IMG/VR virus record: IMGVR_UViG_3300043823_000114 | Span: 1 to 64,000 of that record | DNA length: 64,000 nt | Source of the DNA: a virus | Reading direction: 5' to 3' (one strand) | Part shown: positions 20,488-41,111 of the stretch, one piece after another | How positions within the stretch are numbered: the first letter of the stretch is position 1 | Layout of the letters: each line of letters opens with the position of its first letter | The notes under the pieces: generated by a model | What the model was told of the DNA's origin: nothing | Database searches by the model: none | What the model saw: only the letters and a program-made list of their open reading frames with translations | Made by a program: the position numbers and the translations under genes

Positions 20488-21693
20488 TTAGGAATTCAAT
20501 TTAACTACTGCTTCGACTATACCTTCGCCGACAGTATCTTTATTTTCTAAAGAACGCCCGATGACGTTCCATGCATTAATTTCTGATTTTTTACCTGCTC
20601 GTGCTAGACCATTACCAGCACTGACCAATCTATCGCCTTTTTGTACACGCCCGATAACATTGACTGGAACACGCCCTTGAACTGCAACTGGGGGATGAGT
20701 ATCGTCACCACCAACTCTACTGTTCATAACAAAGGCTGCTTGAGTACTTATCACCCCGAAGACATCTTCGCTCAATTCTTCCACTGCCGCAGTGATTTCA
20801 GCAACCCCACCCAATTCTACAACTGTACCCGGAGCATAAGCAATATCTGATTCAAAGCGTTCTGCCAAGTCAGCGTATTGTGCGTGAATACTTGTTCCAT
20901 AAATGTTATTCCACCAAGCAGTTACACTACCTAGATTATATACTAAGTTAGCGGCGGGTACAACATTACTGGAAAACAACTGTGTTGGCTCCACTGGTAA
21001 TACTACGTTACCAGAAAATACTACGTTACCAGAGAATGTTGCTGAGTTAGCAACTAATGAACTAGTAATTGTTGAACTAGCAGTTATGTTACCGATATTA
21101 GCTGAAGGGCTAATTAAAGCTGTTAATAAGTTTATACCAGGATATATTGTCGTGAATGGAGATCCGCTGATTGGATTGAAAGCGTTAGCATCTGAACTAA
21201 CTGTTCCAACCAGTTTATTGTTAACAATAATGTTTCCCACTGTGTGATTTGTTGACCCGTCGCTAACAACAAACCCAATCAAACTCGTAATTGCCGCTCC
21301 AGGGGGAGTTGCAGGACCGATTGCTATCCACTGTGAGCCATTATAAACACTAAACTGTGTTGTAGATGTATTCCACCAGAAGTCTCCAGTAACTGGATTT
21401 ACTGGGGCCACTGAACCAGTCAGACTACTACTAATAACTTTCCAGTTAGTACCTTGCCATATATTCAAATGTCTATTAACGCTGTCCCACCACAATTGAC
21501 CAACTAGTGGATTAGCTGGTGCAGTCGCACTGCTAAAATTCTCTAGCATGTGAATAAAGTTTTCGTTGAGAAACGCACCGTATCCAGCAAAGTTTCTGCC
21601 TACTAGATTCAAACTAGTAGTTGTAGAATCCTCTGTACCATCTGCTAGAGTTAATAATGCAGTGCCGTTTGTTAGTGTTAGATTATATGCCAT
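20488..21693 (-). CDS. Tail fibre protein with YADLAER C-terminal domain
   Basis: A 401-residue fibre. Residues about 1-130 contain tandem segments ending in QLWWDS, DFWWNTS and QWIAIGP, shared with the protein at 25692-26873, and probably form the virion-attachment part. The C-terminal 130 residues start with HAQYADLAERFESD and end in EGIVEAVVKLNS. This domain is related to the peptidase G2 / intramolecular chaperone type at fibre tips and is shared with 27568-28602. The domain may cleave itself after trimerisation, but that is known only for relatives. A late-promoter-like CATAAATATA lies 18 bases upstream. Confidence 0.75.
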   Translation of the reverse strand: MAYNLTLTNGTALLTLADGTEDSTTTSLNLVGRNFAGYGAFLNENFIHMLENFSSATAPANPLVGQLWWDSVNRHLNIWQGTNWKVISSSLTGSVAPVNPVTGDFWWNTSTTQFSVYNGSQWIAIGPATPPGAAITSLIGFVVSDGSTNHTVGNIIVNNKLVGTVSSDANAFNPISGSPFTTIYPGINLLTALISPSANIGNITASSTITSSLVANSATFSGNVVFSGNVVLPVEPTQLFSSNVVPAANLVYNLGSVTAWWNNIYGTSIHAQYADLAERFESDIAYAPGTVVELGGVAEITAAVEELSEDVFGVISTQAAFVMNSRVGGDDTHPPVAVQGRVPVNVIGRVQKGDRLVSAGNGLARAGKKSEINAWNVIGRSLENKDTVGEGIVEAVVKLNS

Positions 21694-21726: not shown

Positions 21727-21975
21727 TTATGAAGGTACTCCAGTTCCCCACCAGATTAAGACCGCCCCATTCTCTGCTGGGAGACCCACATTATTAACAT
21801 CTCCGCCATTGCCCCCATTTCCGTAAGGCCCGTAAGTATTCGTGCCCAGAGTCACTGTGGCGCTATTAGTTCCACCTACACCACCGGGTTCATATTCATT
21901 ACTATTAGAGTCTGGTCCGTTTGACCCATTAGCCCCATTTGGGCTACCACCTGCTCCACCTGCTCCACCTGGCAT
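21727..21975 (-). CDS. Glycine-rich adhesin-like small protein
   Basis: An 82-residue protein that is almost entirely glycine-rich repeats (PGGAGGAGG, PGGVGG, NGGNGG) and ends with GAVLIWWGTGVPS. The composition resembles glycine-rich loops of T4-type gp38 receptor-binding tips and the C-terminal tail of the S53 protein encoded nearby. The strong GAGGAG Shine-Dalgarno close to the ATG supports translation. A role at the fibre tip is an inference from composition and location among fibre genes. It could also be a fragment of a longer ancestral glycine-rich protein. Confidence 0.65.
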   Translation of the reverse strand: MPGGAGGAGGSPNGANGSNGPDSNSNEYEPGGVGGTNSATVTLGTNTYGPYGNGGNGGDVNNVGLPAENGAVLIWWGTGVPS

Positions 21976-21976
21976 A

Positions 21977-22960
21977 TTATTTCTCCTCAGAACGTTTATT
22001 TTGCCAAAGTTCTAGCAACTTGGGCCATTGTTTTAGCTCATATTGTTCATGTAAATTGGCGGCTTCGATCAATCTAAGATGTTGAAAATCTTGTTCATCA
22101 ATACCCAAATCATCTCTGTTACCATTTTCTAGAACAGTGGGTCTATCGATTGTGGCGAACAATTTCACTAATCTAGTGGCCTCTGTACCAATCACATTTT
22201 CCAATCTACCAATTTCGTCAAATTTTAAACTTTGATATTTAAACGCATTGGTGCCGAATACTGAATGTGCGCCACCTGCCAAGCACACTGATTTTTCAGC
22301 TTTGGCATCCATCAGCAAATCATATGTATTTAACAGATGTCTGGCCAAATTTAAAGACTTATGTGGTTGTATAGTTGCCCCAATTTCTTCTAAAAATGTT
22401 TGTAGATTATCTCTATCCGTGTCTGCATCCATCCTCGCACATTTAAACATTAAAGTTCTGCGCTGTTCTGGACAAATACGAGTTACACCACGAGCACAAT
22501 GCCACTGATTACCATTGAATATTACTGCTCTATTAAACTTGGGCATAGTTGACACTGATATTTCATCTTTGTCGAATATCACAGTTTCCCCAGCCCATTC
22601 ACGGTGCCATTGTTTGTTCATGTATACCACAACAGTAACATCTTGCTCTCTTGCACTATCACGATGCGGATAACCCTCTACCCCATAAGTATGAGCATTG
22701 GCATAACACCGTATTAATCTGTAATCAGGTAAATGATTAGTTTTTATATAGTTCCATGCTTTGGCAGCAATATCTGGTAAACGATCAGATATATCTAGCC
22801 CATTTGAAATATCTGTTTTTGTGAGATCAAAGTTCCAATGAGAATATTCGATTTTTTCATGCGATCTCCACCCATACTGCCAAGTAACTCTAGATAAAAA
22901 TGTACCCAGTCTGTCTGCTACATCCGACGGAAGAAAATCATCAACAATTTTAGTCTCCAC
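21977..22960 (-). CDS. 2-oxoglutarate/Fe(II)-dependent dioxygenase (prolyl-hydroxylase type)
   Basis: A 327-residue protein. Residues about 60-170 form the double-stranded beta-helix: iron ligands His99-Arg-Asp101 in GYPHRDSAR and His154 in NQWHCARGV, with 2OG-binding Arg167/168 in QRRTLMFK. An AGETVIFDKDE strand lies between. The C-terminal 150 residues are helical and unassigned. I chose the GTG at 22960 because the frame upstream is only the alternate reading of the S53 protein's glycine-rich tail and an SD-like GGAGGTGA lies 5 bases before this GTG. The gene overlaps the S53 stop by 11 bases. Such oxygenases are common in T4-like phages; hydroxylation of a virion protein or nucleotide is possible, target unknown. 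Confidence 0.85.
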   Translation of the reverse strand: METKIVDDFLPSDVADRLGTFLSRVTWQYGWRSHEKIEYSHWNFDLTKTDISNGLDISDRLPDIAAKAWNYIKTNHLPDYRLIRCYANAHTYGVEGYPHRDSAREQDVTVVVYMNKQWHREWAGETVIFDKDEISVSTMPKFNRAVIFNGNQWHCARGVTRICPEQRRTLMFKCARMDADTDRDNLQTFLEEIGATIQPHKSLNLARHLLNTYDLLMDAKAEKSVCLAGGAHSVFGTNAFKYQSLKFDEIGRLENVIGTEATRLVKLFATIDRPTVLENGNRDDLGIDEQDFQHLRLIEAANLHEQYELKQWPKLLELWQNKRSEEK

Positions 22961-25688
22961 CCCCGTCACCTCCGCCACCACTGTCAGAACCACCACCATC
23001 ACCAGTACCACCACCATCACCATAATAATATGGCGGACTTGATGATGCCCCACTTCCCGCTCCACCACCATTTATAGTCACAGTACCAAAACTTCCACTG
23101 ATAGTAGTATTTTCTCCTAGATTCCCCACACCAGCATTTAGCTGAGTTCTAGTGTTCCATATAAGATTATTACTTGGATCATATATTGCCACACCAACCC
23201 CACCCGGGCCACCCTGATTCAACATGTTAAGATAGATTCTATGATCACCCTGAGTGGCAGAGAAAGTTTGTGACACTGTAGTAGTATAGTCATCACTCTG
23301 CGTTAAAAGTGTTCCATCTATGAATACTTGCACTAGATTATCCGCGGATGCTGTAACAGTATAAGTTCCCGTTACAGGTGCAGTCCAGACTCTAGTCATA
23401 TTTTGATATATACCAACTGGATCTACTCCGTTAGGATTGACCCAAACCCCATAAGTGTTCAAAAAAGTACCCCACGCACCAGGATCTGTTACTGGATATA
23501 CAGTAGTTGCATTTACTGTTGTTGGACTATCTCCGCTATCTCCCACCACGATAGTCAATGTTTCGCCCGGTGTTACTGTGACACTGGTGCTTTCTTGATA
23601 GCCACCCGAGCCACCGCCACCGCCACCGCCACCATAATTGCCCACACCTGAGCCACCCGAGCCACCTCCGCCAACAGCAAGATAGTTTATTTTATGTAAG
23701 TGATCGGGAACAGTCCAATAATATGTACCAGGGTTGTCGAATAACTGGACTCCGTTTAATTGCGTGACTGTGATATTTACTGGTATCGGGAAGCTCGGAA
23801 TGCCGTTATTGGCATTACTAGAAACAATTGCGAAATCAACATATTCACCAGCTGATAGTGTAGAAATACTATTCGCATAAAACTGTGCGCTGGCTCCAGG
23901 AATAATATTACCAGAAGTAAATCCAGATACTACAAAATAACCATACTGACTTGTAATTGAAGCAATATTTAAGTTTGCACCATTACCAACGTTTTGTATG
24001 GTGACTGTGGTAATCCCTCGTTCATTTAAATAAGCAGATATTGAAGTAGGCCCGCTCGGTATAGAGATTGCGGCATAATCTGGAATTACCGTGACTGTTT
24101 GATTTATTGTAGCATTAGCATATCCCAAATAACCTATATAATTCGTAAATTGTATATTTCCAGAATATGAACCTATAGTATTACCAGAAACATAGAAAGT
24201 TAAAGGAGTTGAATTGCCAGGAGTTATTGTTACTGGAAAAGTTGGACCATTAGTGGTATAGTTGCCAACACTATCATTGTATACCACATTGTTAATAGTT
24301 AAATCATAATCACCAGTATTAGTAACAACTAAAGTTGACCCAGTATCTGGAAAATTTTGATAATAACTATGTCCCAGAGAAGATGTATTGGGGCTGAAAA
24401 TTCCCTTAGGCGTTGGATAAATTCTCTCCCAAGTACCATCATTATGTGCGACCCATCCAGTTTGCACAGGATGCCAAGTATTGTCAGCGTTGTATATCCA
24501 CATACCCTTTAAAGGGTCCCAAGTGCCTGCGTTATCTATGTATGTGACACCTAGCCCATACTTGATTGCTGAATTTGGAATCGATCTTTCGAAGACCGCC
24601 AACAGCATACTACCAATTGGACTACCCAACCCAGTAACTGGATCCCAAGTCGATGAAGTGACGTCATATCCGCTAGCTATAAAACTAGCATCATTTGTGC
24701 CAGATATGATTTTAGTAAAGGCAGATTTATTAGAGTAAAAATAATCCCGGGTCACTAGACCGAATCGGCGCTTTAATAAGGATTTATATCTAGCTAAAAT
24801 CCCCGCCATTACTGGACACGAAAAACTTGTACCAATATATCCAGTTTGAATACTTCCATTAAAATAAAATCCGTAACCCTCCATTGGAACTGCAATGTCT
24901 GGCACCCCACGAGTTGATAATGTATTTGTAGTACCCGTAATCGTCGTGTAAGTCAAACCAGTCTGCCAACTTGGGCAAGGAATATATTTACTAATGCCAC
25001 CACCAGAGTCACTATCTGCTAGTTCTCCGGTAATGTTTCCACTATTGTCTTGTGTAACTTTTGTTCCACCAACAGCCACAACATATTCACTAGACGCAGG
25101 CCAGTTAACCAATTCTTGACTATCTTGTTGCTGATCCTCACTACCGTAATCGCCACTGGCCGCTAAAATCGTAACACCCTGGTTGATATAACTTTGTATA
25201 TCTGATTCCGCCGAAGTTAGATACGATGCGTCATTTGTTGCCCAACTAATACTAACAATGTCACACCCATCAGCCACTGCGGCAACAACGGCATTCGCAA
25301 GGCTCGATACTGTTTGTTGTCCTATATATATGACGATGTTAGCAGACGGGACAACACTAGCAACACAATACAAATCCAATGTATTTTCTAGACTGGCGAC
25401 GCCTGCTGTTGTTAACAAGTTAGAACTAAATGTACCCAAAGCCCCGTCAATTGTAACTTGATGAATATTAGGAGCAGTGAGTCCAATGGCAGTCATTGAT
25501 GCGTTTAAATCAGACTGTTGGAACCCACCACCCAAACTAATAATGCCAACTTTTGTTCCGGCACCAGTACTTGCTGGGATATTGTAGTAGTTTGCAACTT
25601 GTGGCGGACTAATGTTGCCTAATGGCCCAAGTGATATACTTGGCACAGCAATCTGTTTAAACTGTGGAGTTACGGTACTAATATTCAT
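22950..25688 (-). CDS. Sedolisin (S53) serine peptidase fused to adhesin-like domains, virion module
   Basis: A 912-residue protein. Residues about 25-370 are a complete sedolisin catalytic domain: Glu101 and Asp105 in LENTLDLYC, the oxyanion Asp180 in SGDYGS, Ser288 in GTSFSCPVMAG, and a C-terminal calcium-site-like TWDPVTGLGSP. Asp180 to Ser288 is 108 residues, matching Asp170-Ser278 of sedolisin. The usual N-terminal inhibitory prodomain is missing, since the catalytic fold begins within 30 residues of the start. Beyond it come a WDPLKG/YNADNTWHP segment, Ig-like beta domains (about 430-640), a PA14-like segment (TYTVTASADNLVQVFIDG) and a glycine-rich end. Its place among fibre genes suggests a protease displayed on the particle; the target is unknown. 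Confidence 0.85.
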   Translation of the reverse strand: MNISTVTPQFKQIAVPSISLGPLGNISPPQVANYYNIPASTGAGTKVGIISLGGGFQQSDLNASMTAIGLTAPNIHQVTIDGALGTFSSNLLTTAGVASLENTLDLYCVASVVPSANIVIYIGQQTVSSLANAVVAAVADGCDIVSISWATNDASYLTSAESDIQSYINQGVTILAASGDYGSEDQQQDSQELVNWPASSEYVVAVGGTKVTQDNSGNITGELADSDSGGGISKYIPCPSWQTGLTYTTITGTTNTLSTRGVPDIAVPMEGYGFYFNGSIQTGYIGTSFSCPVMAGILARYKSLLKRRFGLVTRDYFYSNKSAFTKIISGTNDASFIASGYDVTSSTWDPVTGLGSPIGSMLLAVFERSIPNSAIKYGLGVTYIDNAGTWDPLKGMWIYNADNTWHPVQTGWVAHNDGTWERIYPTPKGIFSPNTSSLGHSYYQNFPDTGSTLVVTNTGDYDLTINNVVYNDSVGNYTTNGPTFPVTITPGNSTPLTFYVSGNTIGSYSGNIQFTNYIGYLGYANATINQTVTVIPDYAAISIPSGPTSISAYLNERGITTVTIQNVGNGANLNIASITSQYGYFVVSGFTSGNIIPGASAQFYANSISTLSAGEYVDFAIVSSNANNGIPSFPIPVNITVTQLNGVQLFDNPGTYYWTVPDHLHKINYLAVGGGGSGGSGVGNYGGGGGGGGSGGYQESTSVTVTPGETLTIVVGDSGDSPTTVNATTVYPVTDPGAWGTFLNTYGVWVNPNGVDPVGIYQNMTRVWTAPVTGTYTVTASADNLVQVFIDGTLLTQSDDYTTTVSQTFSATQGDHRIYLNMLNQGGPGGVGVAIYDPSNNLIWNTRTQLNAGVGNLGENTTISGSFGTVTINGGGAGSGASSSPPYYYGDGGGTGDGGGSDSGGGGDGGGD

Positions 25689-25691
25689 AGT

Positions 25692-26873
25692 TTAAATCTG
25701 GAACCAGAAGTCCCCGGGATTGCCGACTCCGTTAACTGGCAAACTTGTGCTAACTGTTTTCTGACTGCCCAACCAAGGAGCAGTATTACCATTAGTAATA
25801 GCATTTTGAACACTATTCATAGTAGCAATTTGTGCTGTGTTCGCACTAGCCAAAGCAACATTAGGTGCCAGTGGGGTGCCAGTCAATGTTGGACTAGCGA
25901 GCGGTGCTAACGGTGCTGTCGCCACTGAAATGCTGTTATCAACATATTGTTTAGGAGTTAATCCCAGAACATTAGTCGGATTTTGTGTAACAGTTACTTC
26001 ACCAGTAGATGCGTTGATGTGCAATAATCTAGTATTCACTCCGTTTTGATCTGCGTGAAAACTTATATTACCGTTAAAGTATTCATTAGTGAATCTAGCT
26101 GTACCGCCACCAGTGTTTGTAGAAACAACTAGAATACCGCCACCCACTGATACATTACCGTAGAAAGTGCTGTCAATGTCTGTTCTAGCATAGTTTGCGG
26201 CAACGATATTGCCCAACTGCTGAGCATTGACTGCTGTGCCATATAATAAGTTGTTAGCTTCTGTGGATAGTGTGATACCCGGACTGATAACACTGAATCC
26301 AGCAACAGCACTACCAGCACTTAATGTGAATGGTTGATCGTAACTCACAATACAACTAACATTGTTATTTGTATAAAACTTAATAACTGTATGTGTAACG
26401 CTATTAGTATCAATAACATCTTCAACAATTGCGCCGCTCTTGCCGTCAGGAGCTTTGTATGCTGGGCCTATTAAGCTCCAGCCACTACCGTTATACATGT
26501 TGAGTTGATAGTTTGTACTATCCCACCACTGAGCACCAACTTGTGTTGTCACTGGAGCGCTGGGAGAAACCCACACTGGTGTCACTGGTAACCAACTTGT
26601 TCCGTTGTAAATTCTTAGAATATAATTGCCAGCTGTACTAATATCATACCACAACTCACCCTGCAATGGGGTGGATGGGGCAGTAATATTGGCGAAATTC
26701 TGTAATAACTTGATAAAGTTTTCATCAAGATATTGACCATAGAATGGATAATTCTTACCAAATAAATCTAAGTCACTGGAATTTAAACCAGGATTAATAT
26801 CTGGGCCATCCGCAGTACCATCCAGTAATGTGATTAAAACTTGACCAGTTGTTGTATTAATTGTATAAGACAT
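25692..26873 (-). CDS. Tail fibre protein, paralog of the 401-aa fibre
   Basis: A 393-residue fibre-like protein. The N-terminal part (TGQVLITLLDGTADG, FYGQYLDENFIKLLQNF, GELWYD, AQWWDSTNYQLNMYNG) matches the N-terminus of the protein at 20488-21693 in order and spacing, so the two probably bind the same virion site. The middle is Asn/Gly/Val-rich beta repeats and the C-terminus contains TPKQYVDNSISVA and GDFWFQI, common in phage fibre tails. It lacks the YADLAER domain of its paralog. It lies 3 bases upstream of the S53 gene. Confidence 0.75.
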   Translation of the reverse strand: MSYTINTTTGQVLITLLDGTADGPDINPGLNSSDLDLFGKNYPFYGQYLDENFIKLLQNFANITAPSTPLQGELWYDISTAGNYILRIYNGTSWLPVTPVWVSPSAPVTTQVGAQWWDSTNYQLNMYNGSGWSLIGPAYKAPDGKSGAIVEDVIDTNSVTHTVIKFYTNNNVSCIVSYDQPFTLSAGSAVAGFSVISPGITLSTEANNLLYGTAVNAQQLGNIVAANYARTDIDSTFYGNVSVGGGILVVSTNTGGGTARFTNEYFNGNISFHADQNGVNTRLLHINASTGEVTVTQNPTNVLGLTPKQYVDNSISVATAPLAPLASPTLTGTPLAPNVALASANTAQIATMNSVQNAITNGNTAPWLGSQKTVSTSLPVNGVGNPGDFWFQI

Positions 26874-26878
26874 TTATA

Positions 26879-27535
26879 TTATCCTTGTGCGGTCAAGTTT
26901 GTTAGAGTCTGGATACGCACAGTGTAATCAACTTGAATCAATCTGTTTAGAGATTTCTGAACTGGGTGGAAGATAACATGAGTTAACATTGGGCCAGTTG
27001 AAGTTAATCCGCTTGTACCATCAGTACTACGACCAAATAAACCCAATTCATCGAAAGTATAAGTGTCTGTGAGTGTTTGACTGTTATCAAATGCGCTTTG
27101 CCCTGCAGGCTCACCGTAGTCAAGCAAACAACTAACAAGAATATCTGTATAAACTTGTCCAGGAATATGACGAACTTGAATGTAGTTTTGTGCAGGATTT
27201 GTGTTTGCAGCCGCTGTATCGTCTACCACTTTACTATAAGTTGCATTATATAGATTACTACTTTGTCCAGTAGTATTTGGTGGAAGATATGTGATAACGC
27301 CAGTGGGGTCTACGCTAGTTCCGCCATTACCAAAATGCATCTCATAGATGTAGTTTTGATCTTTGTTTGCCAGCATATATGCTAAAGCAACGCTGATATT
27401 TTCGTAGTGAATGGCATTGCTTTTGTCTTGAAGGACAACGATGTTTTTTGGGTCTGTAACGTCACTGATCTTGATATGACCACGGACATAGATACCACTC
27501 ATTTCATCTGGCTGACGGATTGTGTTTTTACTCAT
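26879..27535 (-). CDS. Virion structural protein, fibre/baseplate-associated
   Basis: A 218-residue beta-rich protein. Its N-terminus (GIYVRGHIKISD, KNIVVLQDKSNAIHYENIS) and the block YEMHFGNGGTSVDPTG resemble conserved tail structural proteins of T4-like cyanophages, which I recall only generally. The C-terminus (LTHVIFHPVQKS, DYTVRIQTLTN) is also beta-strand-like. It could be a fibre adaptor. AATAAATATAC lies 19 bases upstream (27564-27554), so it is likely the head of a late unit that continues into the fibre genes. Confidence 0.65.
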   Translation of the reverse strand: MSKNTIRQPDEMSGIYVRGHIKISDVTDPKNIVVLQDKSNAIHYENISVALAYMLANKDQNYIYEMHFGNGGTSVDPTGVITYLPPNTTGQSSNLYNATYSKVVDDTAAANTNPAQNYIQVRHIPGQVYTDILVSCLLDYGEPAGQSAFDNSQTLTDTYTFDELGLFGRSTDGTSGLTSTGPMLTHVIFHPVQKSLNRLIQVDYTVRIQTLTNLTAQG

Positions 27536-28634: not shown

Positions 28635-31600
28635 TTAACTGAGCCCCTTAATATACTGTGCTTCCACAGTATTAGAACCTTCTAATCCAAGACCATCAGT
28701 AACAGCACCAACATTTGCCCCAGTAGTAGCCAGTATATTACCAAAGTTATCTGTGACTAAGTCGCTCAAGTTATCTACAAAGTCTTGTGGAGCCCCAGAT
28801 GATTGATTCAACCAAGTAGTGGTATGTACTAAATTTCCACCTGGAATCAAGAAATTGATGTTTGTATCAACTACCTGTGTTCCCACAGTATAAACATTGG
28901 CTGCACCAGTACCATCAACAGCACGACGAATGTTAGTTAAAACATTGTTTACCATGTCGATGCCCCAGAATACGATCTTTTCACCGTTGATAAACACTAC
29001 CCCCGGGATAAGTTTGCTCACATTTGGTGAACTGATTGCTTGTGCATTGGCGATATGAATATTACTATCTGTGATATTCAAGTTTGCTGTCAAAGTAGTA
29101 ATGTGACTTTCACTGATACCATAGTATTGTGGCCAAATTGCTGTATTTGTACCGGAAGCATTACCGTTCATGTTCTGAACAATTCTGTATCCAATGTTGG
29201 CAGTAAAACCTTGTGCTATCAAATTGGCGCTCAGTGGCAATCCAACATTTGCAGCCAATCCATTCATACCAGTATAAACAGTCATATTGAGATTGTCATA
29301 AGTTACCCCTGGAACGAATTCTTCAGGCGCATGACTACTTGCAGTATCATAATATGCACCACCATCTATAATGCTATAAACATTAGAGTTGGTGTAAGTA
29401 TTCTGAATTGTAGTATCTAGATATGTTGGATTATTAAAATCATAATACTTTAGGACCAGATTAGCACCGATACTTGTGGTTGGTAGAGAACCGCTTACAA
29501 TAATCTGCCATGGGTCAACTTCTGTAATATTCAACTCATAACTTTGACTCGTATCTGTATCAACTAATACAATGGGTTGTCCACTAGCATAGTTATATTG
29601 AGTAAAGTCTACTAAATTCTCTGTGGTAATTTGATTAAACGAAGAAGAACTTGCTACTGTAACACCCAAGTTGGCAGTGTTTGCAGATATCCAGTGAGTT
29701 GCATTGTTATCAAATGTCCCAACAACATCAACTAGAGTAACTAGATTACCCACTGATGTATTATAAACAACACCAGATGCACCACTAACTGCTTGTGTAA
29801 TAACATTACCTGTATATACTACCGCAGAGTTTGTTAAGTCCAATGTAACTGTTGGAATTTGTACATTGGCGCTATAAATCGCCCGTGTATTTGCCCAAGT
29901 ATAGATGAGATTGCTACTAAACACTGAAGTATTTGCTTCGTAAGTAACACCAGTTACATTAACTCCTGGATACTCTATTCCAGTCATTAGCTGTGCAAGA
30001 TCGTTTCCTGGCATACCCGCAGTTGGTTGATAATATGCAGTGATACGGTCACTGGCATTACTAAACGAATTGGCATTGAGTAAGTTATACTTCGTATAGT
30101 CAAACACATTGCTTATTGCGATAGGATTAACGTTACTATCTGTACCATTTACTAATATATTGCCGTCTCTACGGACAAAGTTAGTCGTTAAGTTACCAAC
30201 AGTGATCGTTTGCTTAGTAGAATTTACAGACAGTACTCTCGCATTGGCAGTAGTATTTTTCTGAGTAATGTAATCTCCAATGTTAGCTTGTATATTACCA
30301 CTAGTTGTCAAAATCGCACTACTATAAACATTTGCTGTAGCTTGATATGCTTGCCCGTTATAACTTACAATACTGCTATTTGCCACAGTGATGTTTGGCA
30401 TCCAAGCAATAATATTACTATTGTATGTAATTCTGTCAAACGCAATAGTTGTAGCAAAGTTACGAACAGTGTTGTAGCTATTGTTGATAAACTGAGTGAA
30501 ACTTGAAATGCTTGTTACATTCGAATGCAAGTTGGCTGCATCACTGAAGATGTAATCCGTTGTATTGAATGATCCAACCGTATCAACTAGTGTCACAACA
30601 TTACTATTTGTAATAGTAGTATACACTGTACCATAAGCACCTGTATTTTGCTGAGTAATAATGTTACCAACATAAACTGTGACATTGCTGTATGTAGCAA
30701 GTTGTGTTGTGGGTAAGCTATCTACTTGATAATGATTTACTAATTTAGCATACCCGAACGCACCAGAACCAGTTCCGTTAATAAAGATAGTTGGCTGACT
30801 TGTGTAGCCCGACCCTGGATTGATAACTTCGAAAGATTCAATTCCGCCAGTAGAGAAGTTAACAATGGCCTGTATGTTTGCACCAGTACCACCGCCACCA
30901 ACAACAGTAACAGAGGGCGTTACTACATACCCAGATCCTGCATTAGAAACGAATACACTACCGATACCATAAGTGTGATTGTTATACCATTGACTATACT
31001 GAGGTAATGTGCTTAATAAAGTGCTGTCTCTTGGATCAGACCCATTGGGACTACGGTAAGCACCAAACGCATCAATGTATGTACTTGGGATATCAAAGTC
31101 TGTAGTATCACCGTAATATTCGTCGTTACCTTGATAATCAAGTTTATATTCACGGATACTTGTTCTATAAGGTTTGACTTCGTTGATGTAATCTTCGTAA
31201 TATGTTTGATTGTCTGGGCTATAACTTGCAGGTTGTCCCAGAGTCTTGAACTTATGTAAGATACTGATGAAACTTGTCTTGAATACCCAATCAACTGCTG
31301 GCTGTTCTGTTAGAACATAGTTTATCAATGTAAAGAACATTTGATTAAAATATACAGCCAAAGTGTCAATGAAAATATTATTCTGAATAGCATTGAAAAT
31401 AATGCGGATTTCATTACCAGTCACATTTGATGTATACAGTGTACTACTCAACTGTATTGTGCCGTTTTGAATACCAACAACATTTGTAGTAAGATCAGAA
31501 TTTACACGGTATACTGCAAACTCACCGTTACCATTGTTTAGGACTTTCACGGTGTCCCCTGCAACTAGAGTTAGAGTTGAGATGTCTGCGGCAGTTGCCA

Positions 31601-34600
31601 CAACATAAGTTGCTAGCACTGTACTGTCGTAAGTACTATCATACCAATCTGTCTTACTCCAATAGAACGGAGTATAGTAGCTTTGTTCGCTAGTCAATAC
31701 CCAAGTAGTACCAGACCATTCATAAGTCGTCCATATGCCAGATTTAGTTTCGTCTGCCAACACTAGTACAGTATAACCAGCAGCCAATACACCAGTGTCG
31801 ATATACCCAAGTTCCTCGTATGTCGCAACTTGAATATCGTATGTTGTATAGTCTGGTAATGGAGCAGATGCATACAATGGATTGATATTGAATTCTTCTA
31901 CCACTGGATACTGTATTAATATGCCGTTAACAAATTCTACCCAGTTTTGTAAAGCAGTTGTACGATTTACAAATAGAGTTTGATTTGGGGCATTGTTAAG
32001 ACCAATACTTTCTTGTACAGATAAACTTGCATCAGGAACTGCAAATCCGTTAGCATCAATACCACTCAAACTGTCAATGATTTTTTCAACAATGCGTGTT
32101 GGGATTGTACTGCTCGGATTACCTTCTTGAACTAGTTGATATTCACTGTGAATGACATGACTATTACGGATAGTATCGTAATCAACGTGTAGAACGGTAC
32201 TGTTACCAGACAAATAGTTACTGATACCATGCAAACTTACTGTATCATCTTGAATAACTGTTGCATAAGGAATCGATTGTGATTGTGGATTTTCGATAAT
32301 GTCTTGAATCGTGCTCACAGTATTTCTATGAACACTAGATTGTTCAAGACTATTCTTACCATATACCCAATAATAGTATGTGCTCTTTGGCAACTTAGTA
32401 GTTGGGTTAATAGTTGTTTCCACAACATAAGCACTGTTATCTGCGTACAATGGAGTTCCTAGTCCGTCGTAAGCACTCGGGGGCAGATCGCTAGACACCC
32501 ACTCACAAACTTGAACTTGACTTCCAGGGAACATCATACCCCAGTTGTTTGCACGGTAAGTCAGATTACCTTGTTCATAATCGATATAACGAAGAACACC
32601 AGTATTCCACCAAGTTTTAGTAGTTTGATCTGGACCCCAATGATAGTCTAAACTATATGCTAGATTTGGAATACTATCTACGCTACCAACGCTGTTATAA
32701 ACTGCTGGATCGTATGCTGTGATGAAATCTAAATCTTCTTGTGCCGCACCAAGAACTTTACCCTTAGCAGGATCAATGTAGTCTAAGTTAGTAGAGATAA
32801 CGCTATTATTAACGTTATACAAATACATTCTGCTGATACTATCAATATCAACTTTTTCAGTTTCTTGATTGACAATATCCCAACCAATATTACCATTGAA
32901 GTTGTTGTAAGTGTAAAATGTTCCAGCATTACTGATTGGCATAGGAGCGCCAGTAGTAGCATTGTAAACTATCCAAGTATTGCTTGGATCAAACGCTGTA
33001 GAGTTGCTATCACCAGGAGCACCAACGATCATAGTATTGCCATTCATAGCAACACTGTATCCGAATTGATCATGTGGGCTTAGACTATTGTTTTGTAGTC
33101 GTTGAACGAGAACATATTGGTCTTGTACATTACCAGATAGACTGCTGTTTACTAATCCATAAATGTATACAACACCTGAACCCTCAATAGTGTCAATAAA
33201 GATACTATTGTTAAGATCAAAAGTCGTTGTGTCTGTATCAAATGAAGTTGTATTCTCTGTGCTACCACCATTTGCAGAAACTACAAGAGTTTCGCTGTTG
33301 GGACTAGAAAGAATCTGTGATCCGTATTGTGCGACATCTTCCGTTCCAGGATGTTTCAATGTTTGTGCAATACTGAATACGCTTAGCCCCAAGTTAGCCA
33401 TAGCGTTACCATTACCAGGACCAATGATCAGTTTCTGATATGGAGTTGTTACATTGCTCGTAATAGTCAGAGCACCATAGCCCTGAGCAATAGCAGTAAC
33501 ACCGGCGATGTTTGCGCTGTTAATATTCTGTGCCGCTGTAATAGTATTACCAGCAGTAAATGCTACATTAATACCATTAATGCGAATACTATCACCTAGA
33601 CTGACATTACCATTGTAAGTTGTTCCTGTGATTGAGCCATAGCTTGCGCCTTGATTTACATAACGATAAACGATACCGCTGAAATATCCTGGTGCACTGT
33701 ATCCTGGGCTTGCAATATAAACATCTGCGTCATTACCAGAGATGCTTGTAGTAGTACCAAAAGCACCACCGCTAGTTGGATTTGGACTTGTGATCGTTTC
33801 TAATAGATTGAACTTGTTAGTCTCAACATTGATCAAGCTACCGATTACGGGAGCAGTAGTAAATGTTAGAGTTGTTCCAGTAAATGTATATCCGCTAGTA
33901 GCAAGATTACCATTGACTGTTACACGACTTTGGCTGTTTACATTAGAATAAGTTGTTGTATAAGTTGTACCGTTGGCAACAAATGATTCGATACTACGAT
34001 CAAATACATACACAGTTCCAGCGGCTGTAACGCCGTTGACTGCTTGATATGGGGCACTGATTGCTACTTGATTACCTGTACTAGTTGTTTTAACATTGTA
34101 CCCAAACTGTGACGATGAACTACTACCAACGCTGATAGTATTAGCGTATGAATAAGATGTGTAGAAACCAACAGTATTTGCTTGATACACATAAACATTT
34201 CCAGCATTTGGTGCCGATACATACAACCATAGACCGTCAGCGCTTGCGCTGATACTTGATCCAAACAAATCCCCCACGTTACTCAAACTTGGGCTAGTCA
34301 ATGTTTGTTGCCATAGGAAACTTGCATTGCCATTGAATTCATAGATATGAACTCGTCCATATTGCGTAGATCCGTTGCCCGGATTACCGATATATAAAAA
34401 GTTTCCAGAAGTATCTAAACTCGCGCCGAATTTAGTGCCACCACTGTATTGTCCAATATTTGCAACCAATGTAAGTGTGTTGTTATTTGTGACATTAGAA
34501 ACGAATGCATAGACATTACCATTGTTTAATAATGAACTACTTGCCGCCGCAAATGCACCACTTGCGCTGATAGTTGATACCGTACCAAAACCAACATTAC

Positions 34601-37600
34601 TAATGTAGCTGTTAGCATCTAGCTTCATGCTTGGGTTGAAGATGCTAGTGTTACCAGACCATGGGGTTGATTTGTTATAAACTACCCATCCGCCAGTTTC
34701 TGCATCTGTATCAACCCAAAGTTTATCATTGTCCAACCAATCATGTAGCGGAGCAATGCTGTTCAAATCTGTTGGACTATCAAGACGAACACTTTGTAGT
34801 CTGTATAAAGAACCAGTACCAGCTATCTTGATTGCTTGTTTAATCTGATCTGCGGCCTGTGCTTGGAATACTACGCTGAAGTTATAAGCATCAACAACCC
34901 CGTATACACGGTAGAACGCATTAACTCTAACATCAAAGTTTGACAACACAACGATATCGCCATAAGCCACATTATGTGGGCTACTTGTTGTTATAACACC
35001 GATGTTATCAACGCTATATGAAACTTGAGTTACATTAACATCTGTTTCATTAATACGGAATACATTCCAGTTACCTGTCAAATCTCTCGCTGTCCATACA
35101 GTTGAAGCAATACCGTATTGATCTATGTTAGCACTTAAATCATTGAGATTTGCATTGATATCAAATACTGTAGTTGTAATATCATTGATATTGACATATC
35201 CAGCTGTTTGTACATCGTTTTTGTAGTTGCTAGATGCATCACGGTTCACATAGATTGAAGGAGTATAACTTCCTTCAGTTTTGTATAATTGACTAGGTTG
35301 TACACCAATGATTCCACTGATACTTGAACCATTATTAGGTAGAAGTTGTAATGTTACTGGATCACCGTTGAATGTGCCTTCAGTTAAAATCAAGTCAACA
35401 CTACGATTATTGTCTAAAGCACCGTATTCACCGACACGCATAGCCCATTCTTCATAGACATCAATTTCACTTGTCGTACCATTGACACCGGTTGCAGTAA
35501 ATGCAGTGATAGCATTCATTGTACCCTTTTGACGAATATAACCCTGATAGAATTTTGCTTGGGTAACTTCGTCTAGGCCGAAGTTTGTCAAATAATCTCG
35601 TGGTTGGAATCCGATAGCACTATCACTATATAAGTGGAAGTCACCCAATACTTCTGGGTTATCGACATCATTAAATCTATTGAACTTCTCAGCATTGTAG
35701 CTGAAGTTTGGTAGTAGACCGGTCTTGAGTTCATCACTAGACAAACGAGCCCACAGCGTATTATCAAATGTTGTTGCGGCAGGAATGTCTTGTAGCGCAG
35801 TGTAATTAAAACTCTTGTAACTTACGATAGCACCCAATAGATAATCTTTGCCCTGTTGCCAAGCATCCACTGTTGTGTTATTGAACACAAATCCAGGAGG
35901 ATTCATAGCACCAGTCCAAGAACCTGTTTTCTTACCAACAAGTTTTAAACGGTATTGTCTATTGCCAAGTTCTGGAACATAGATGATGTCATTAAAAATA
36001 TCTTTATTGTCAAATAACATTACGTGTTCGTATTCGACAACATCTAGTTTTATCAGAGCAATAGTTTGTCCACCATTGACTGTTATATCACAAGTATTAC
36101 CAGTAGCACTATTTTGTCTATTGACACTCATCTGGCTATATTTGACAAAATTATAACTAGTATCTAGAACACAGCTAGAACCCGGTTGATTGTCAATCTT
36201 ATCAACAACACCCAGCGGAGTGAATAACGTTGTATGATTCAGTATTGGGCTCAATACCAATATGCTACTTGCATTCCATCCTTGTTGTGCCCAAGTTAAA
36301 AATTCTTTAGCACTGAGTAAGAAGTCTCGTTGAACTCCCAAATCAGGGTCAGAATCAATAAACTTAAACCCAACACCCTGTAGATATCTTTGATAACTCA
36401 CTAAGAAATCAACAACTTGTTGTCTTGTAGTGAACTCATATCCGTAAGGAATAGTTATCTTGTATTTCTGATAATCTTGGTAAACTACAGCGGCGTCTTG
36501 TAATACAGGAATAGAATAACTTCTACCATTTACTAGACTGGGGATAATAGTGAAGTACGGAGTGGTTGTATCATATCCGCTTACTGTGAATCCAGATGCT
36601 GTCTTTTCGACAATAACTGCACTGTAAGTTACAGAGTTAGTCGGTGTAGAAGATTGTAATAGAATTCTATAACTCTCATTGGGGATTACTACACCGTTAT
36701 TAGTACTAGTCGGACTACTCTGTTCTGCAATTACTTGTATGAAACTTGAATCCGTGAATCCAGCCATCTTGTAAGAAAGTATTACATTAATAATACTTAA
36801 ATTGATGTACGAGTTAGGGTTAATCCCCAAGTATCTCAAGTTATCTGCCATCCAGTTTAGATAGCTAGCACTACGCTGAATAGTATTTGTATCACTAATA
36901 TTACCGTTAATAGCAGTAGATGCAGGAGTAATGCGTTGTAGTGTAGACGCACAAATAAACTGATTTAGTTCAGTATTTTTGTAATAGTCATTTACATTAA
37001 CTAGTGTTCCAAAATAGAAAGCAGGTTTTGCCATAGCCATAGCTCGTTGGAAAGCATATGGGAAATCACTGCTACGACGCCATGCTGTTTCTACGGGGCC
37101 TTGATCACCGATTCTCCAGTCTGCACTAGCATCTCTACTGTTGAAACTCTTGACGATAAAATCTGCTGGAGCTAACAATACCCCAGTTGCGTCTACTGGA
37201 ATAATTGTTTGTAATCCTGTACGGACGAATCTGCTATCAACATATGGGTTGCCGTTGTTCCAAACAATACCAGCAGCCATGTCGTCCCAAAGAACCATGT
37301 TGCCACCAGTATATGGAGCAGGACCATATCGTGTTTCCCACCAGCTTGGCATTGTTGTGAAGCCAATCATTTCCCAAGGATTAGTATGGGGACGATCTGT
37401 ATCAAAGTAGTATTTGAAAATAGCGCGCCAGTTTCCTGGAAGTGGTGCACCGTTGATTACATCAACAAATCTATCGTAGTTGTAAGTAAATTCGTTGCTG
37501 GCAACAAAAGTTGTATTAGTAATATAATCTATGCGATTATCACCCGCCCATTTTAAGAAGCTAGTTGTAAGCAGTTGTGTAAATTCACTGTTGCTGTAAT

Positions 37601-40600
37601 CTGTTGTTCTAAACTTTCCTGGCAAGAAATCATAGACGCTAAAGACTTGATTTGTGGGATTTACTTTAATATTGTTATAGATGCGTTTTTCAAACTCTAA
37701 CAACAAATCATCACGGTAATCACCAAACGCAGGAGTGATGCTGCCATCGTGCCCTTGTATCACATTCGTTGGAGTAATGTAAGTTGTATCGTAATATTTT
37801 TCAGGAGCAAACTTTGGATACAATCCCAACTTAGTTGGAGTTTCTGGAATATAGCACCCATCAGTACTACTATATTCATTGATAGTGATAGTATCACCAA
37901 TAGTTAATGGTGTGGTAATAGTTATACCAGCAACATTAGCATCAAAAGTATAATCTTGATCCTTGACCAACTGCGCATTATTCAAATACACCAACACAGC
38001 TTGATTACTTAAAGTTGTGTCGCTGAAAATATTACTGATTTCATATCCAGTAATCTCTGCGCTTTCTACTGTGTATGTGATAGTATTCTTAATATCGCCG
38101 TATGGCACCATATCACTATAGTACCATGGGAAGCTACTACTTTTTACAGCATTGATAGTTTTAAGTAGCGTATCAAGTAGTACTGGGATGTTTGTGAAAT
38201 CAAGCCCAGCTGTTCTAGCGCTTAGTTCTAAAATTTTATTTTTAAACTTGCTGTATTCTCTACGGGCTAAATCTAAACCATCAACAAAGTTGAAGTATGG
38301 ATCTACTAACGCAATAGGAACTGCTAATGCAGGACTTGCGTGTTGAAGAATACTACCACCCTGCGGTTTGATATTCAAGTCTCGAAGATTGCTACTACCA
38401 GGGAAACTACCAACAACTTGATTGCTGTTTGCAACCATAGTAGATAAGTGATTACGCAATTGCCCAAGAGTTAATGTTGTAAAGTTGGCATTCTTACTAT
38501 TGAAGTCTAGATTCTTTGGAACTTCGTAATACCCAAGTTGACTCACAGCACTGCTGTTGTAAATCAAAATATCAATTTGATCACCAGTAGTCAAATCAGG
38601 ATCAGTAATGTGTACATAGTTCAAAACGCCCACAGTAATCGTTTCCCAATCAGTTGTCTGAATCGAGTTACGGTATACTCTGAAATAAGGAACTGTGGCT
38701 TCTGTACTATTAGTAATATCTATTTGGAAATAACTATTATTTCCATCATAGACTCCACTAATAATTTGAAACTGCTTTTCTTGTTCAGTATTTGTTGTCC
38801 AACTATTTCTAATAGTAGAATTTGTTAAATCAGAGTTTTGTTGTAGCCAACCAACAGAGTTGATGTTTACGTCAGATTGTGCTGTACCAGCACCATCAGT
38901 AAAGTTGAATGTGTCTGAATCAAAATTGTTGGTGAACTGAATGTCCCCAATTTGATTAAAATTACGGTAGCTTAGTGGGAATCCCAATACTGGATCATTT
39001 ACTCCAGTACCAATAGCGTAGCTGAAAATTTGAGTTCCAGCAAATGTGCTATTAGTGTATGTGCTGATACTTGTACCTGTATCATCGAAAATGTCAAATA
39101 AAGGTGATTGATTAATGCCATTCTTCTGTTGTCCCTGAACCCAAGAACTACCAGTATAGTAGTATTGTAATCCCTTGTATGGACCAGACATTATAACAAG
39201 ATTGTTATTAGCATAAATGTTTTCGTCTGTTGCTGGTGCAAGATTTATTACTAAGTTACTGGAAATATCCACAACATTCACAACAAAGACTTTATCACGC
39301 ACAGTAGGATCAAAGTCGTTGGCGAAAATAACTCGCATACCTTGCTCTAATGTCACACCGTCAAGTGTTGTACCGTAGGGTTGTAATTCTACTGTACTTC
39401 TACTATCAGAGTTTGTAAAGTCAATCAAATCAACTGGAGCCACACCTACATGCCCATAGTTAAAGAGTTGGATATCAGCTTCAAACTCAATGATAGGACG
39501 ATTAGCACGAGTTGATTGGTCTAGAACAGGGGTAACACCGTTGTAAGCGGCACTAGCATTGATAATGTCAATGTGAAACCAACGGTTACTACGAGTCCAT
39601 GGATTCAAGTCAATGCTAGCTCTATTGATTGTAATATAATCAGCAGTACCCAGACCATTCACTGCAAATGGTTCTGGATTGATAAATTTAGAAACATCGA
39701 TAAGTTTTATACCAGTACCCACACCCTCAACATAATAAGTATTACCTTGATATGCCGCAGGAGTTGCAGTTGCATCAAAAGTGACTGCAAGACCGTTAGT
39801 GAATACAACCCCATTTGGGCTTTTATATCCAGTTGATCCCAAAATAGTATTTTCAACATCTACGACCCCTTGATCGGCAAAAAGCATACTGAACTGCCCA
39901 ACCATACCAGAAACAGCGGCGTCTTGATAATACAGCGCAGTCAACGGGGCTGTAATATCTGGCATTAGATTAAACAAGTTTAAACTTAAATAATCATTGG
40001 CTAGAAAATAAGAATATTCTGCTCGTGTTAACCCACTTCGAACAAATACCCGTTGTTGTGCACCGATAGTAAATGCTTGCAACAATGGATTTAAAGTGAC
40101 TATTGGATCTGCATCACTACTTAAACTGATTTGCCATGCATTACGACGAGATGCTACTGGTACTGTTTGACTGTTAACAGTCCATTTACTATCATCCAAA
40201 TCTGTATTAATAAAAATCAATGATTTTAAATTCAGTTGATTGATTGCGTTGACACCATCGAATCCATTTTCGCCGGCAGCAACAATTGCGCTTAGTCTTT
40301 GACCTTGAACTTGAGTATAACTCAATGCTGTACTCAAATCTGCTGTTCCAGCAAGAGTTAGCCGAACATAAAAGTCTTGTGCAGTTGGTTGTGGTACATT
40401 GAATGTGATAGTACCAACATCTGCACCGTTATTTGTTACTCCCAATACATCACGACTAGACAAGCTAGTTTGATTATTTTTTGTTCCGCTAGTTCCAGGA
40501 TTTGTTTGAATCCAGAATGAGTATCCGGGTTGATTTACTATGAATTGATATGTACCACCGTAGGCAAGTTGAATATTTGGATTTTCAACCCCTGATGCAG

Positions 40601-41111
40601 TACTAAATGTATAACTGCCAGTAGCAGGGTTTCTAGTAACTGTAAACGTCTCTAGAATCGGCACTGTGCTAGCGAACACTGAAACTGCTTGTGGGCCGTT
40701 CTCTAACCAATAATACTGATTAAAGTTTACAAATTTATCAAAGTCAAAAAGACCATCATAGCTGTAACTTTCCCCACTGTACAGCCTACTTTGATTATCA
40801 GTCAAACCACCGTAGTGGTTAATCTGATTCAATGTATCAATGTAACTAGCGTAAAACTGATTTTCCCCAGTTACTGGATTATCTATAACAACACTAGGCT
40901 CAAGCTGATAGTTTTGTCGTTGCGCAGTGGGTTCAGGTACATAGTTGTCAGTACTCTTGAACGTTGGTGCAAATTTTCTACCCACATAGCCGTTGATATT
41001 ACGCAAATCCGGTTGCGTAACTAATTGATCTAAGGTTGCATTTAAGAACTTTTTATTTGCGTCGGTTCTATATGTTTCTGGTAAAAAGTTTGTTGTTTTA
41101 ATTTGTGCCAT
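28635..41111 (-). CDS. Giant 4158-aa baseplate/tail structural protein
   Basis: A single 12.5-kb frame with no break, directly after gp6 (one base between stop and ATG), the position of gp7-gp10 genes in T4-like phages. It is rich in Asn, Thr, Tyr, Ser and Val. The N-terminus (TNFLPETYRTDANKKFL, TLDQLVTQPDLRNI) resembles large structural proteins of distant T4-like phages. Residues about 2170-2700 carry several FG-GAP-like units (DQFGYSVAMNGNTMIVGAPG, FGYNVKTTSTGNQVAISAP), suggesting a beta-propeller like that of integrins. Around 3390-3450, GSGYVVTPSVTVVGGGG and PGSGYTSQPTIFING are fibre-type repeats. T4 gp7 is about 1030 residues, so this may be a fused wedge, fibre and adhesin. The precise gp identity is not shown. 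Confidence 0.75.
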   Translation of the reverse strand: MAQIKTTNFLPETYRTDANKKFLNATLDQLVTQPDLRNINGYVGRKFAPTFKSTDNYVPEPTAQRQNYQLEPSVVIDNPVTGENQFYASYIDTLNQINHYGGLTDNQSRLYSGESYSYDGLFDFDKFVNFNQYYWLENGPQAVSVFASTVPILETFTVTRNPATGSYTFSTASGVENPNIQLAYGGTYQFIVNQPGYSFWIQTNPGTSGTKNNQTSLSSRDVLGVTNNGADVGTITFNVPQPTAQDFYVRLTLAGTADLSTALSYTQVQGQRLSAIVAAGENGFDGVNAINQLNLKSLIFINTDLDDSKWTVNSQTVPVASRRNAWQISLSSDADPIVTLNPLLQAFTIGAQQRVFVRSGLTRAEYSYFLANDYLSLNLFNLMPDITAPLTALYYQDAAVSGMVGQFSMLFADQGVVDVENTILGSTGYKSPNGVVFTNGLAVTFDATATPAAYQGNTYYVEGVGTGIKLIDVSKFINPEPFAVNGLGTADYITINRASIDLNPWTRSNRWFHIDIINASAAYNGVTPVLDQSTRANRPIIEFEADIQLFNYGHVGVAPVDLIDFTNSDSRSTVELQPYGTTLDGVTLEQGMRVIFANDFDPTVRDKVFVVNVVDISSNLVINLAPATDENIYANNNLVIMSGPYKGLQYYYTGSSWVQGQQKNGINQSPLFDIFDDTGTSISTYTNSTFAGTQIFSYAIGTGVNDPVLGFPLSYRNFNQIGDIQFTNNFDSDTFNFTDGAGTAQSDVNINSVGWLQQNSDLTNSTIRNSWTTNTEQEKQFQIISGVYDGNNSYFQIDITNSTEATVPYFRVYRNSIQTTDWETITVGVLNYVHITDPDLTTGDQIDILIYNSSAVSQLGYYEVPKNLDFNSKNANFTTLTLGQLRNHLSTMVANSNQVVGSFPGSSNLRDLNIKPQGGSILQHASPALAVPIALVDPYFNFVDGLDLARREYSKFKNKILELSARTAGLDFTNIPVLLDTLLKTINAVKSSSFPWYYSDMVPYGDIKNTITYTVESAEITGYEISNIFSDTTLSNQAVLVYLNNAQLVKDQDYTFDANVAGITITTPLTIGDTITINEYSSTDGCYIPETPTKLGLYPKFAPEKYYDTTYITPTNVIQGHDGSITPAFGDYRDDLLLEFEKRIYNNIKVNPTNQVFSVYDFLPGKFRTTDYSNSEFTQLLTTSFLKWAGDNRIDYITNTTFVASNEFTYNYDRFVDVINGAPLPGNWRAIFKYYFDTDRPHTNPWEMIGFTTMPSWWETRYGPAPYTGGNMVLWDDMAAGIVWNNGNPYVDSRFVRTGLQTIIPVDATGVLLAPADFIVKSFNSRDASADWRIGDQGPVETAWRRSSDFPYAFQRAMAMAKPAFYFGTLVNVNDYYKNTELNQFICASTLQRITPASTAINGNISDTNTIQRSASYLNWMADNLRYLGINPNSYINLSIINVILSYKMAGFTDSSFIQVIAEQSSPTSTNNGVVIPNESYRILLQSSTPTNSVTYSAVIVEKTASGFTVSGYDTTTPYFTIIPSLVNGRSYSIPVLQDAAVVYQDYQKYKITIPYGYEFTTRQQVVDFLVSYQRYLQGVGFKFIDSDPDLGVQRDFLLSAKEFLTWAQQGWNASSILVLSPILNHTTLFTPLGVVDKIDNQPGSSCVLDTSYNFVKYSQMSVNRQNSATGNTCDITVNGGQTIALIKLDVVEYEHVMLFDNKDIFNDIIYVPELGNRQYRLKLVGKKTGSWTGAMNPPGFVFNNTTVDAWQQGKDYLLGAIVSYKSFNYTALQDIPAATTFDNTLWARLSSDELKTGLLPNFSYNAEKFNRFNDVDNPEVLGDFHLYSDSAIGFQPRDYLTNFGLDEVTQAKFYQGYIRQKGTMNAITAFTATGVNGTTSEIDVYEEWAMRVGEYGALDNNRSVDLILTEGTFNGDPVTLQLLPNNGSSISGIIGVQPSQLYKTEGSYTPSIYVNRDASSNYKNDVQTAGYVNINDITTTVFDINANLNDLSANIDQYGIASTVWTARDLTGNWNVFRINETDVNVTQVSYSVDNIGVITTSSPHNVAYGDIVVLSNFDVRVNAFYRVYGVVDAYNFSVVFQAQAADQIKQAIKIAGTGSLYRLQSVRLDSPTDLNSIAPLHDWLDNDKLWVDTDAETGGWVVYNKSTPWSGNTSIFNPSMKLDANSYISNVGFGTVSTISASGAFAAASSSLLNNGNVYAFVSNVTNNNTLTLVANIGQYSGGTKFGASLDTSGNFLYIGNPGNGSTQYGRVHIYEFNGNASFLWQQTLTSPSLSNVGDLFGSSISASADGLWLYVSAPNAGNVYVYQANTVGFYTSYSYANTISVGSSSSSQFGYNVKTTSTGNQVAISAPYQAVNGVTAAGTVYVFDRSIESFVANGTTYTTTYSNVNSQSRVTVNGNLATSGYTFTGTTLTFTTAPVIGSLINVETNKFNLLETITSPNPTSGGAFGTTTSISGNDADVYIASPGYSAPGYFSGIVYRYVNQGASYGSITGTTYNGNVSLGDSIRINGINVAFTAGNTITAAQNINSANIAGVTAIAQGYGALTITSNVTTPYQKLIIGPGNGNAMANLGLSVFSIAQTLKHPGTEDVAQYGSQILSSPNSETLVVSANGGSTENTTSFDTDTTTFDLNNSIFIDTIEGSGVVYIYGLVNSSLSGNVQDQYVLVQRLQNNSLSPHDQFGYSVAMNGNTMIVGAPGDSNSTAFDPSNTWIVYNATTGAPMPISNAGTFYTYNNFNGNIGWDIVNQETEKVDIDSISRMYLYNVNNSVISTNLDYIDPAKGKVLGAAQEDLDFITAYDPAVYNSVGSVDSIPNLAYSLDYHWGPDQTTKTWWNTGVLRYIDYEQGNLTYRANNWGMMFPGSQVQVCEWVSSDLPPSAYDGLGTPLYADNSAYVVETTINPTTKLPKSTYYYWVYGKNSLEQSSVHRNTVSTIQDIIENPQSQSIPYATVIQDDTVSLHGISNYLSGNSTVLHVDYDTIRNSHVIHSEYQLVQEGNPSSTIPTRIVEKIIDSLSGIDANGFAVPDASLSVQESIGLNNAPNQTLFVNRTTALQNWVEFVNGILIQYPVVEEFNINPLYASAPLPDYTTYDIQVATYEELGYIDTGVLAAGYTVLVLADETKSGIWTTYEWSGTTWVLTSEQSYYTPFYWSKTDWYDSTYDSTVLATYVVATAADISTLTLVAGDTVKVLNNGNGEFAVYRVNSDLTTNVVGIQNGTIQLSSTLYTSNVTGNEIRIIFNAIQNNIFIDTLAVYFNQMFFTLINYVLTEQPAVDWVFKTSFISILHKFKTLGQPASYSPDNQTYYEDYINEVKPYRTSIREYKLDYQGNDEYYGDTTDFDIPSTYIDAFGAYRSPNGSDPRDSTLLSTLPQYSQWYNNHTYGIGSVFVSNAGSGYVVTPSVTVVGGGGTGANIQAIVNFSTGGIESFEVINPGSGYTSQPTIFINGTGSGAFGYAKLVNHYQVDSLPTTQLATYSNVTVYVGNIITQQNTGAYGTVYTTITNSNVVTLVDTVGSFNTTDYIFSDAANLHSNVTSISSFTQFINNSYNTVRNFATTIAFDRITYNSNIIAWMPNITVANSSIVSYNGQAYQATANVYSSAILTTSGNIQANIGDYITQKNTTANARVLSVNSTKQTITVGNLTTNFVRRDGNILVNGTDSNVNPIAISNVFDYTKYNLLNANSFSNASDRITAYYQPTAGMPGNDLAQLMTGIEYPGVNVTGVTYEANTSVFSSNLIYTWANTRAIYSANVQIPTVTLDLTNSAVVYTGNVITQAVSGASGVVYNTSVGNLVTLVDVVGTFDNNATHWISANTANLGVTVASSSSFNQITTENLVDFTQYNYASGQPIVLVDTDTSQSYELNITEVDPWQIIVSGSLPTTSIGANLVLKYYDFNNPTYLDTTIQNTYTNSNVYSIIDGGAYYDTASSHAPEEFVPGVTYDNLNMTVYTGMNGLAANVGLPLSANLIAQGFTANIGYRIVQNMNGNASGTNTAIWPQYYGISESHITTLTANLNITDSNIHIANAQAISSPNVSKLIPGVVFINGEKIVFWGIDMVNNVLTNIRRAVDGTGAANVYTVGTQVVDTNINFLIPGGNLVHTTTWLNQSSGAPQDFVDNLSDLVTDNFGNILATTGANVGAVTDGLGLEGSNTVEAQYIKGLS

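Follow-up and report, generated by a model that had tools for sequence, protein, structure and literature searches.

Genomic setting and layout of the fusion gene

The window analysed here, a stretch of 64,000 nucleotides, is part of a 90-kb virus record (IMG/VR record IMGVR_UViG_3300043823_000114) that is probably a fragment of a genome. The structural genes of the window match those of RaK2-like jumbo phages and their relatives (such as Atu_ph07, Phosso, CBB and 121Q). Its tail module starts on the minus strand with the gene of a giant virion structural protein of 4158 aa (28635..41111), which was assigned by its match to phrog_10938 and by synteny. On the same strand lie the gene of T218 (26879..27535), a 218-aa protein that matches phrog_11259 and is a homologue of CBB_230, and the tail-fibre gene F393 (25692..26873), which has PHROG matches to virion structural and tail fibre proteins. 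In Phosso, T218 directly follows the giant structural gene, and two small genes lie in between in Atu_ph07. CBB_230 is present in the virions of phage CBB according to mass spectrometry (PMC5259590).

The gene under study (22950..25688, minus strand) lies directly downstream of F393 and encodes a protein of 912 aa. This fusion protein consists of an S53 (sedolisin) catalytic domain at residues 27-365 (24594..25610, minus strand; defined with phmmer against kumamolisin and with alignments), a W-repeat at residues ~385-425 (24414..24536, minus strand; HMM search), an Ig-like domain of the HYDIN/VesB-like type at residues 451-514 (24147..24338, minus strand; Pfam E=2.5e-4, 21.7 bits for a cut-off of 25.5) and a Gly-rich domain (Gly_rich_2) at residues 653-910 (22959..23732, minus strand; Pfam E=1.8e-6, above the cut-off). 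Residues 648-737 also match a PHROG minor tail protein. The first-pass annotation had described a protease fused to Ig-like, PA14-like and glycine-rich adhesin segments. The glycine-rich part of this description stands, the Ig-like domain falls just under the Pfam cut-off, and the PA14-like insert, located inside the Gly-rich domain at residues 769-814, is weak (E=0.007, Pfam). The S53 domain and the Gly-rich adhesin are encoded in one ORF, which bears out the proposal that the protease is part of a tail-fibre protein. Both sequence features of the Gly-rich tail adhesins of RaK2-like phages, the W-repeat and the Gly_rich_2 domain, are found in this protein, and its gene occupies the slot of such adhesins, after an F393-type fibre gene. 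Separately, a downstream fibre gene (20488-21693) presents at residues 263-325 a borderline match to Peptidase_G2, a self-cleaving chaperone (E=1.8e-5, just under the cut-off).

Identity of the protease domain

Residues 27-365 matched kumamolisin with E=1.7e-41 when searched with phmmer against PDB sequences, which is far beyond chance. Nine kumamolisin-type sequences were matched at E<=1.5e-38 and human TPP1 at 2e-14. The catalytic residues of sedolisins align with Glu101 (25386-25388), Asp105 (25374-25376), Asp180 (25149-25151) and Ser288 (24825-24827), all encoded on the minus strand. Relative to 12 bacterial S53 proteins, Glu101, Asp105 and Ser288 were invariant and Asp180 was near-invariant, and all four residues were invariant in an alignment of 54 viral S53 sequences. 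These alignments confirm that the catalytic set is intact, as had been read from the window alone. The accompanying statement that the Asp-Ser distance has the exact 108-residue spacing of sedolisin was not correct: the distance is 108 residues in our protein, but Asp164 and Ser278 of kumamolisin are 114 apart (PMC8004986). The assignment of the residues still holds.

Judged by homology and by these catalytic residues, the domain is a member of the S53 family. Its likeness to kumamolisin and other sedolisins (MEROPS S53; PDB 1t1g, 1gt9 and 1sio) extends over the whole catalytic domain and includes the Glu-Asp-Asp-Ser set and the motif GTSxSxP around the serine. It differs from these enzymes by the lack of a prodomain, by a Ser at the position equivalent to Glu32 and by a Lys in place of a Ca2+-ligand Asp. 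Moreover, sedolisins are free secreted enzymes, whereas the S53 domain of the window is fused to a tail adhesin.

Comparison with relatives lacking the protease

A near relative, L202, matches the window in gene order and shares its Gly-rich fibre (T218, F393 and the giant protein are 87%, 72% and 67% identical, respectively). The L202 gene that follows F393 begins with MTIPNAAIKYGLG..., which corresponds to residues ~371 onward of the fusion protein, and contains no protease. Using blastn, we found that DNA similarity to L202 breaks off at 25685, immediately beyond the start codon of the fusion gene, and is back at 24571. Together with the protein comparison, this delimits a grafted segment of 1.1 kb (24572..25684, minus strand) that is in frame with the adhesin. 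A Gly-rich ORF was located directly after the F393-type gene in 18 of the 23 relatives listed, and several of these ORFs begin with a W-repeat. The Gly-rich adhesins of the RaK2-like phages L202 and L219 equal the fusion protein in their slot, in the W-repeat at their N-terminus and in their Ig-like and Gly-rich parts, but they have no protease domain. The fusion protein is thus a tail adhesin of the usual kind to which a protease has been added at the start. An HMM search that recovered 81 ORFs in a control set identified no S53 ORF in the available stretches of the 80 nearest contigs with T218.

Several free-standing phage S53 proteins without prodomain also end with the W-repeat, and an HMM search did not detect it in 92 bacterial S53 loci. 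A second fusion of an S53 domain to a Gly-rich domain was found in L021. As read from the DNA, the comparison with L202 shows that a Gly-rich adhesin already present in a RaK2-related jumbo phage received an S53 domain without prodomain, in frame and at its N-terminus.

A family of S53 proteins in phages

With an alignment that included bacterial S53 proteins as the query, IMG/VR yielded at least 178 viral contigs with an S53 gene. We kept 80 of these 178 contigs for locus analysis, and a second scan yielded eight further viral S53 contigs without prodomain. Back-translated searches with the single fusion protein, or with its C-terminal half alone, returned no relatives; the family came to light only when bacterial S53 sequences were included in the query alignment. 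No S53 protein was detected in 50,697 GenBank phages using tblastn and no publication on a phage sedolisin or S53 protein was found in the open-licence literature. The initial impression that a sedolisin had not been described before in a phage fibre thus agrees with the GenBank phage records and open-licence papers searched. Homologues do exist in other phage tail modules: many copies are located in that of RaK2-like jumbo phages, beside the gene of T218.

Homologues of the tail genes of the window were found in 39 of the 80 viral S53 loci. In 30 of the 80 loci, the S53 stop is followed within 100 bases by the start of a T218 homologue in the same orientation, and the giant protein is encoded upstream of S53 wherever the flank extends far enough. 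In other phages, S53 adjoins tail-tube and terminase genes (L019) or a tail-fibre gene (L021), or precedes an endolysin gene (L029).

We inferred a maximum-likelihood phylogeny from 86 catalytic domains, 50 of them from phages. One group apart from the bacterial sequences holds 47 of the 50 phage sequences (SH-aLRT 92). Three candidate phage sequences (L081, L082 and L085) branched among bacteria and were set aside as possible contamination by bacterial genes. The domain of the window falls in a clade of 12 sequences (support 99) that is nested among phage forms with a prodomain, and none of the 12 members matches the prodomain model. On the evidence of this tree, the domain does not stand alone but belongs to an S53 family of phages, one that includes a prodomain-less clade. 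Its best relative is only 49% identical over the S53 domain. Between related phage copies dN/dS ranged from 0.03 to 0.24, which indicates that the family is under purifying selection; the copy of the window itself has no relative close enough for such an estimate.

One other member of the clade of 12, L079, combines in a single protein (5793-9881) an S8 subtilisin domain, recognised by its Asp, His and Ser motifs, followed by an Ig-like part and by an S53 domain without prodomain. We also considered the motif RPxxGxxYPR, present near the C-terminus of 52 of the 80 phage S53 proteins and absent from the fusion protein, as a general virion signal. This was rejected since the only match beyond S53 proteins was a chance-like one, in one opposite-strand ORF of L014-L016.

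Missing prodomain and unusual residues

An N-terminal prodomain is a common, though not defining, feature of S53 proteins. The catalytic domain of the fusion protein begins at residue ~27 and no prodomain precedes it. The Pro-kuma_activ domain, which was detected in 41 of 54 viral sequences (53 representatives and the fusion protein), has no match anywhere in the 90,208-base virus record. We also built an HMM from phage prodomains, which recovered 60 phage S53 ORFs and 91 bacterial ORFs as a positive control and had no match in the fusion protein. The absence of the prodomain, already noticed in the first-pass annotation, is upheld by both models. A prodomain supplied in trans by a gene of its own was considered as well, but when 189 viral loci, among them that of the window, were scanned with the phage-prodomain HMM, no stand-alone prodomain was detected. 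Based on a crude hydropathy test, neither the fusion protein nor the other phage S53 copies present a marked hydrophobic, secretion-like N-terminus. An obvious signal is also missing from most bacterial S53 proteins by the same crude test, so its absence from the phage proteins says little.

The loss of the prodomain is accompanied by changes in the catalytic domain. In kumamolisin, Glu32 is presumably part of the catalytic network. The equivalent position in the alignment (kumamolisin numbering) is a Glu in 29 of 32 phage forms with a prodomain and a Ser, Ala or Gly in all 19 prodomain-less sequences examined, and an Asn directly follows the catalytic Glu in each of these 19 sequences. Other substitutions concern the fusion protein. 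At the position of the Ca2+-ligand Asp, which is conserved in 50 of the 54 viral sequences, it alone has a Lys (Lys326), and it therefore lacks the C-terminal Ca2+ site (Asp316 of kumamolisin), a common but not defining S53 feature. Unusual residues also surround Ser288 (Ile285, Phe289 and Cys291). As far as the alignment can tell, Lys326 and Ile285/Phe289/Cys291 leave room for an altered or absent activity.

A prodomain-less S53 gene was also found outside phages, on a Mycetohabitans plasmid (L012, 2908-4023), near a glycosyl hydrolase 108 gene. Like the fusion protein, it presents a Ser at the Glu32 position and an Asn after the catalytic Glu. Unlike the fusion protein, it is a free-standing bacterial gene of 371 aa, and in the tree it does not join the phage clade, although its branch is long and its placement uncertain.

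Possible roles of the putative tail-borne protease

Most enzymes known from phage tails act on sugars or on peptidoglycan. Tailspike depolymerases open the host surface from the tail, as we propose for the fusion protein, but they cut glycans rather than protein and their folds are unrelated to sedolisin. Our results suggest that the tails of some phages are equipped with an enzyme that cuts protein. Digestion of surface protein layers and processing of other fibres are the two roles that the first-pass annotation had raised. Our favoured interpretation, in which we place roughly even confidence, is that a sedolisin grafted from a phage-specific lineage onto an adhesin cleaves a host-surface protein at adsorption. 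The fibre part would anchor the protein in the tail, and the protease domain would cut an S-layer, outer-membrane or pilus protein, or a protein matrix. With no prodomain or evident secretion signal, the domain would fold already mature in the host cytoplasm. It could be harmless there through a pH dependence, borrowed by analogy from kumamolisin, or until its substrate is met outside. We count in favour of this interpretation the S53 identity, the invariant catalytic residues, the low dN/dS between related copies, the nested prodomain-less clade, the graft, the W-repeat shared with fibres, the second fusion in L021 and the position of S53 genes beside T218, whose homologue CBB_230 is a virion protein. 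Lys326 and the unusual residues around Ser288 count against it, and the acid optimum of known sedolisins may be unsuited to a neutral host surface. The broader proposition, that tailed phages including uncultivated RaK2-like ones use a sedolisin lineage as tail parts, with an altered clade devoid of prodomain, to open the protein coats of their hosts, is one that we advance more tentatively.

The main rival is a maturation protease that cleaves itself or trims neighbouring fibres during assembly, like the self-cleaving chaperone peptidases of fibres. Sedolisins do process themselves, S53 genes are located among fibre genes and the borderline Peptidase_G2 match downstream would imply that fibre processing is common here. 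However, close relatives that have no S53 build these fibres all the same, and the distribution of S53 is patchy, also among isolates with the same tail genes, when a needed enzyme should be fixed. We consider this explanation unlikely, although it deserves to be kept in view. It is less probable again that the domain no longer cuts and either serves for binding or as a spacer or is a passenger being lost. Such a state would fit Lys326, the unusual residues beside the nucleophile and the loss of the Glu32 equivalent throughout the clade, but the catalytic set of four is complete, the reading frame is open and purifying selection acts on the related family.

An intracellular protease acting on host proteins in the infected cell, linked to tail genes by late co-expression only, appears improbable to us. 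It would fit the lack of an evident secretion signal and the many free-standing S53 copies; the presence of S53 as a separate gene in many phages would also suit a maturation role. Yet in the window the domain is covalently joined to a tail adhesin, and its free-standing relatives share the W-repeat of the fibres or have long fibre-like parts (L029). Finally, an artefact joining reads of two phages, conceivable for a single metagenomic record when S53 is missing from the available stretches of all 80 nearest contigs with T218, is hardly credible, as it would need two joins 1.1 kb apart, both in frame and at a start codon, between segments of equal G+C (42.0% for the graft and 41.9% for the fibre), and L021 independently presents an S53 domain fused to a Gly-rich domain.

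The S53 domain itself belongs to a known family; what is new is its setting in a tail adhesin and the prodomain-less phage clade. If cleavage at the host surface is true, general proteases on tails would be a route through protein surface layers and matrices, and this phage lineage would supply sedolisins that need no prodomain. The locus also documents clearly how an enzyme domain was added in nature to a receptor-binding fibre, since a relative without the graft is available for comparison. With at least 178 contigs, the family is large enough for these ideas to be testable once a cultivated carrier is found.

A Gly-rich domain in two pieces

The Gly-rich domain continues beyond the stop of the fusion gene as a separate ORF of 82 aa (21727..21975, minus strand), identified by comparison with L021 and L202. 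This ORF represents the C-terminal part of the domain and ends with NGAVLIWWGTG, as do the unbroken Gly-rich domain of L021 and a separate ORF of L202. Between the two halves sits a gene (21977..22960, minus strand) that encodes a 2OG-Fe(II) oxygenase with DUF6817 (Pfam, NCBIfam), whose GTG start overlaps the stop of the fusion gene. Stop and start codons overlap on both flanks of the oxygenase gene (21727-22960; GTGGAGACTAA and TAATATG). A separate C-terminal Gly-rich ORF is also present in L202 and apparently in L225, with other sequence between the pieces. Gene order in these phages suggests that a two-piece Gly-rich adhesin with a cargo gene is a recurrent arrangement. The oxygenase matches phrog_274, whose label of "DNA endonuclease V" looks like a mis-annotation. 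The start of a protein encoded in L206 (10718-11698), after a Gly-rich adhesin, resembles the oxygenase of the window, and such an oxygenase might hydroxylate the adhesin.
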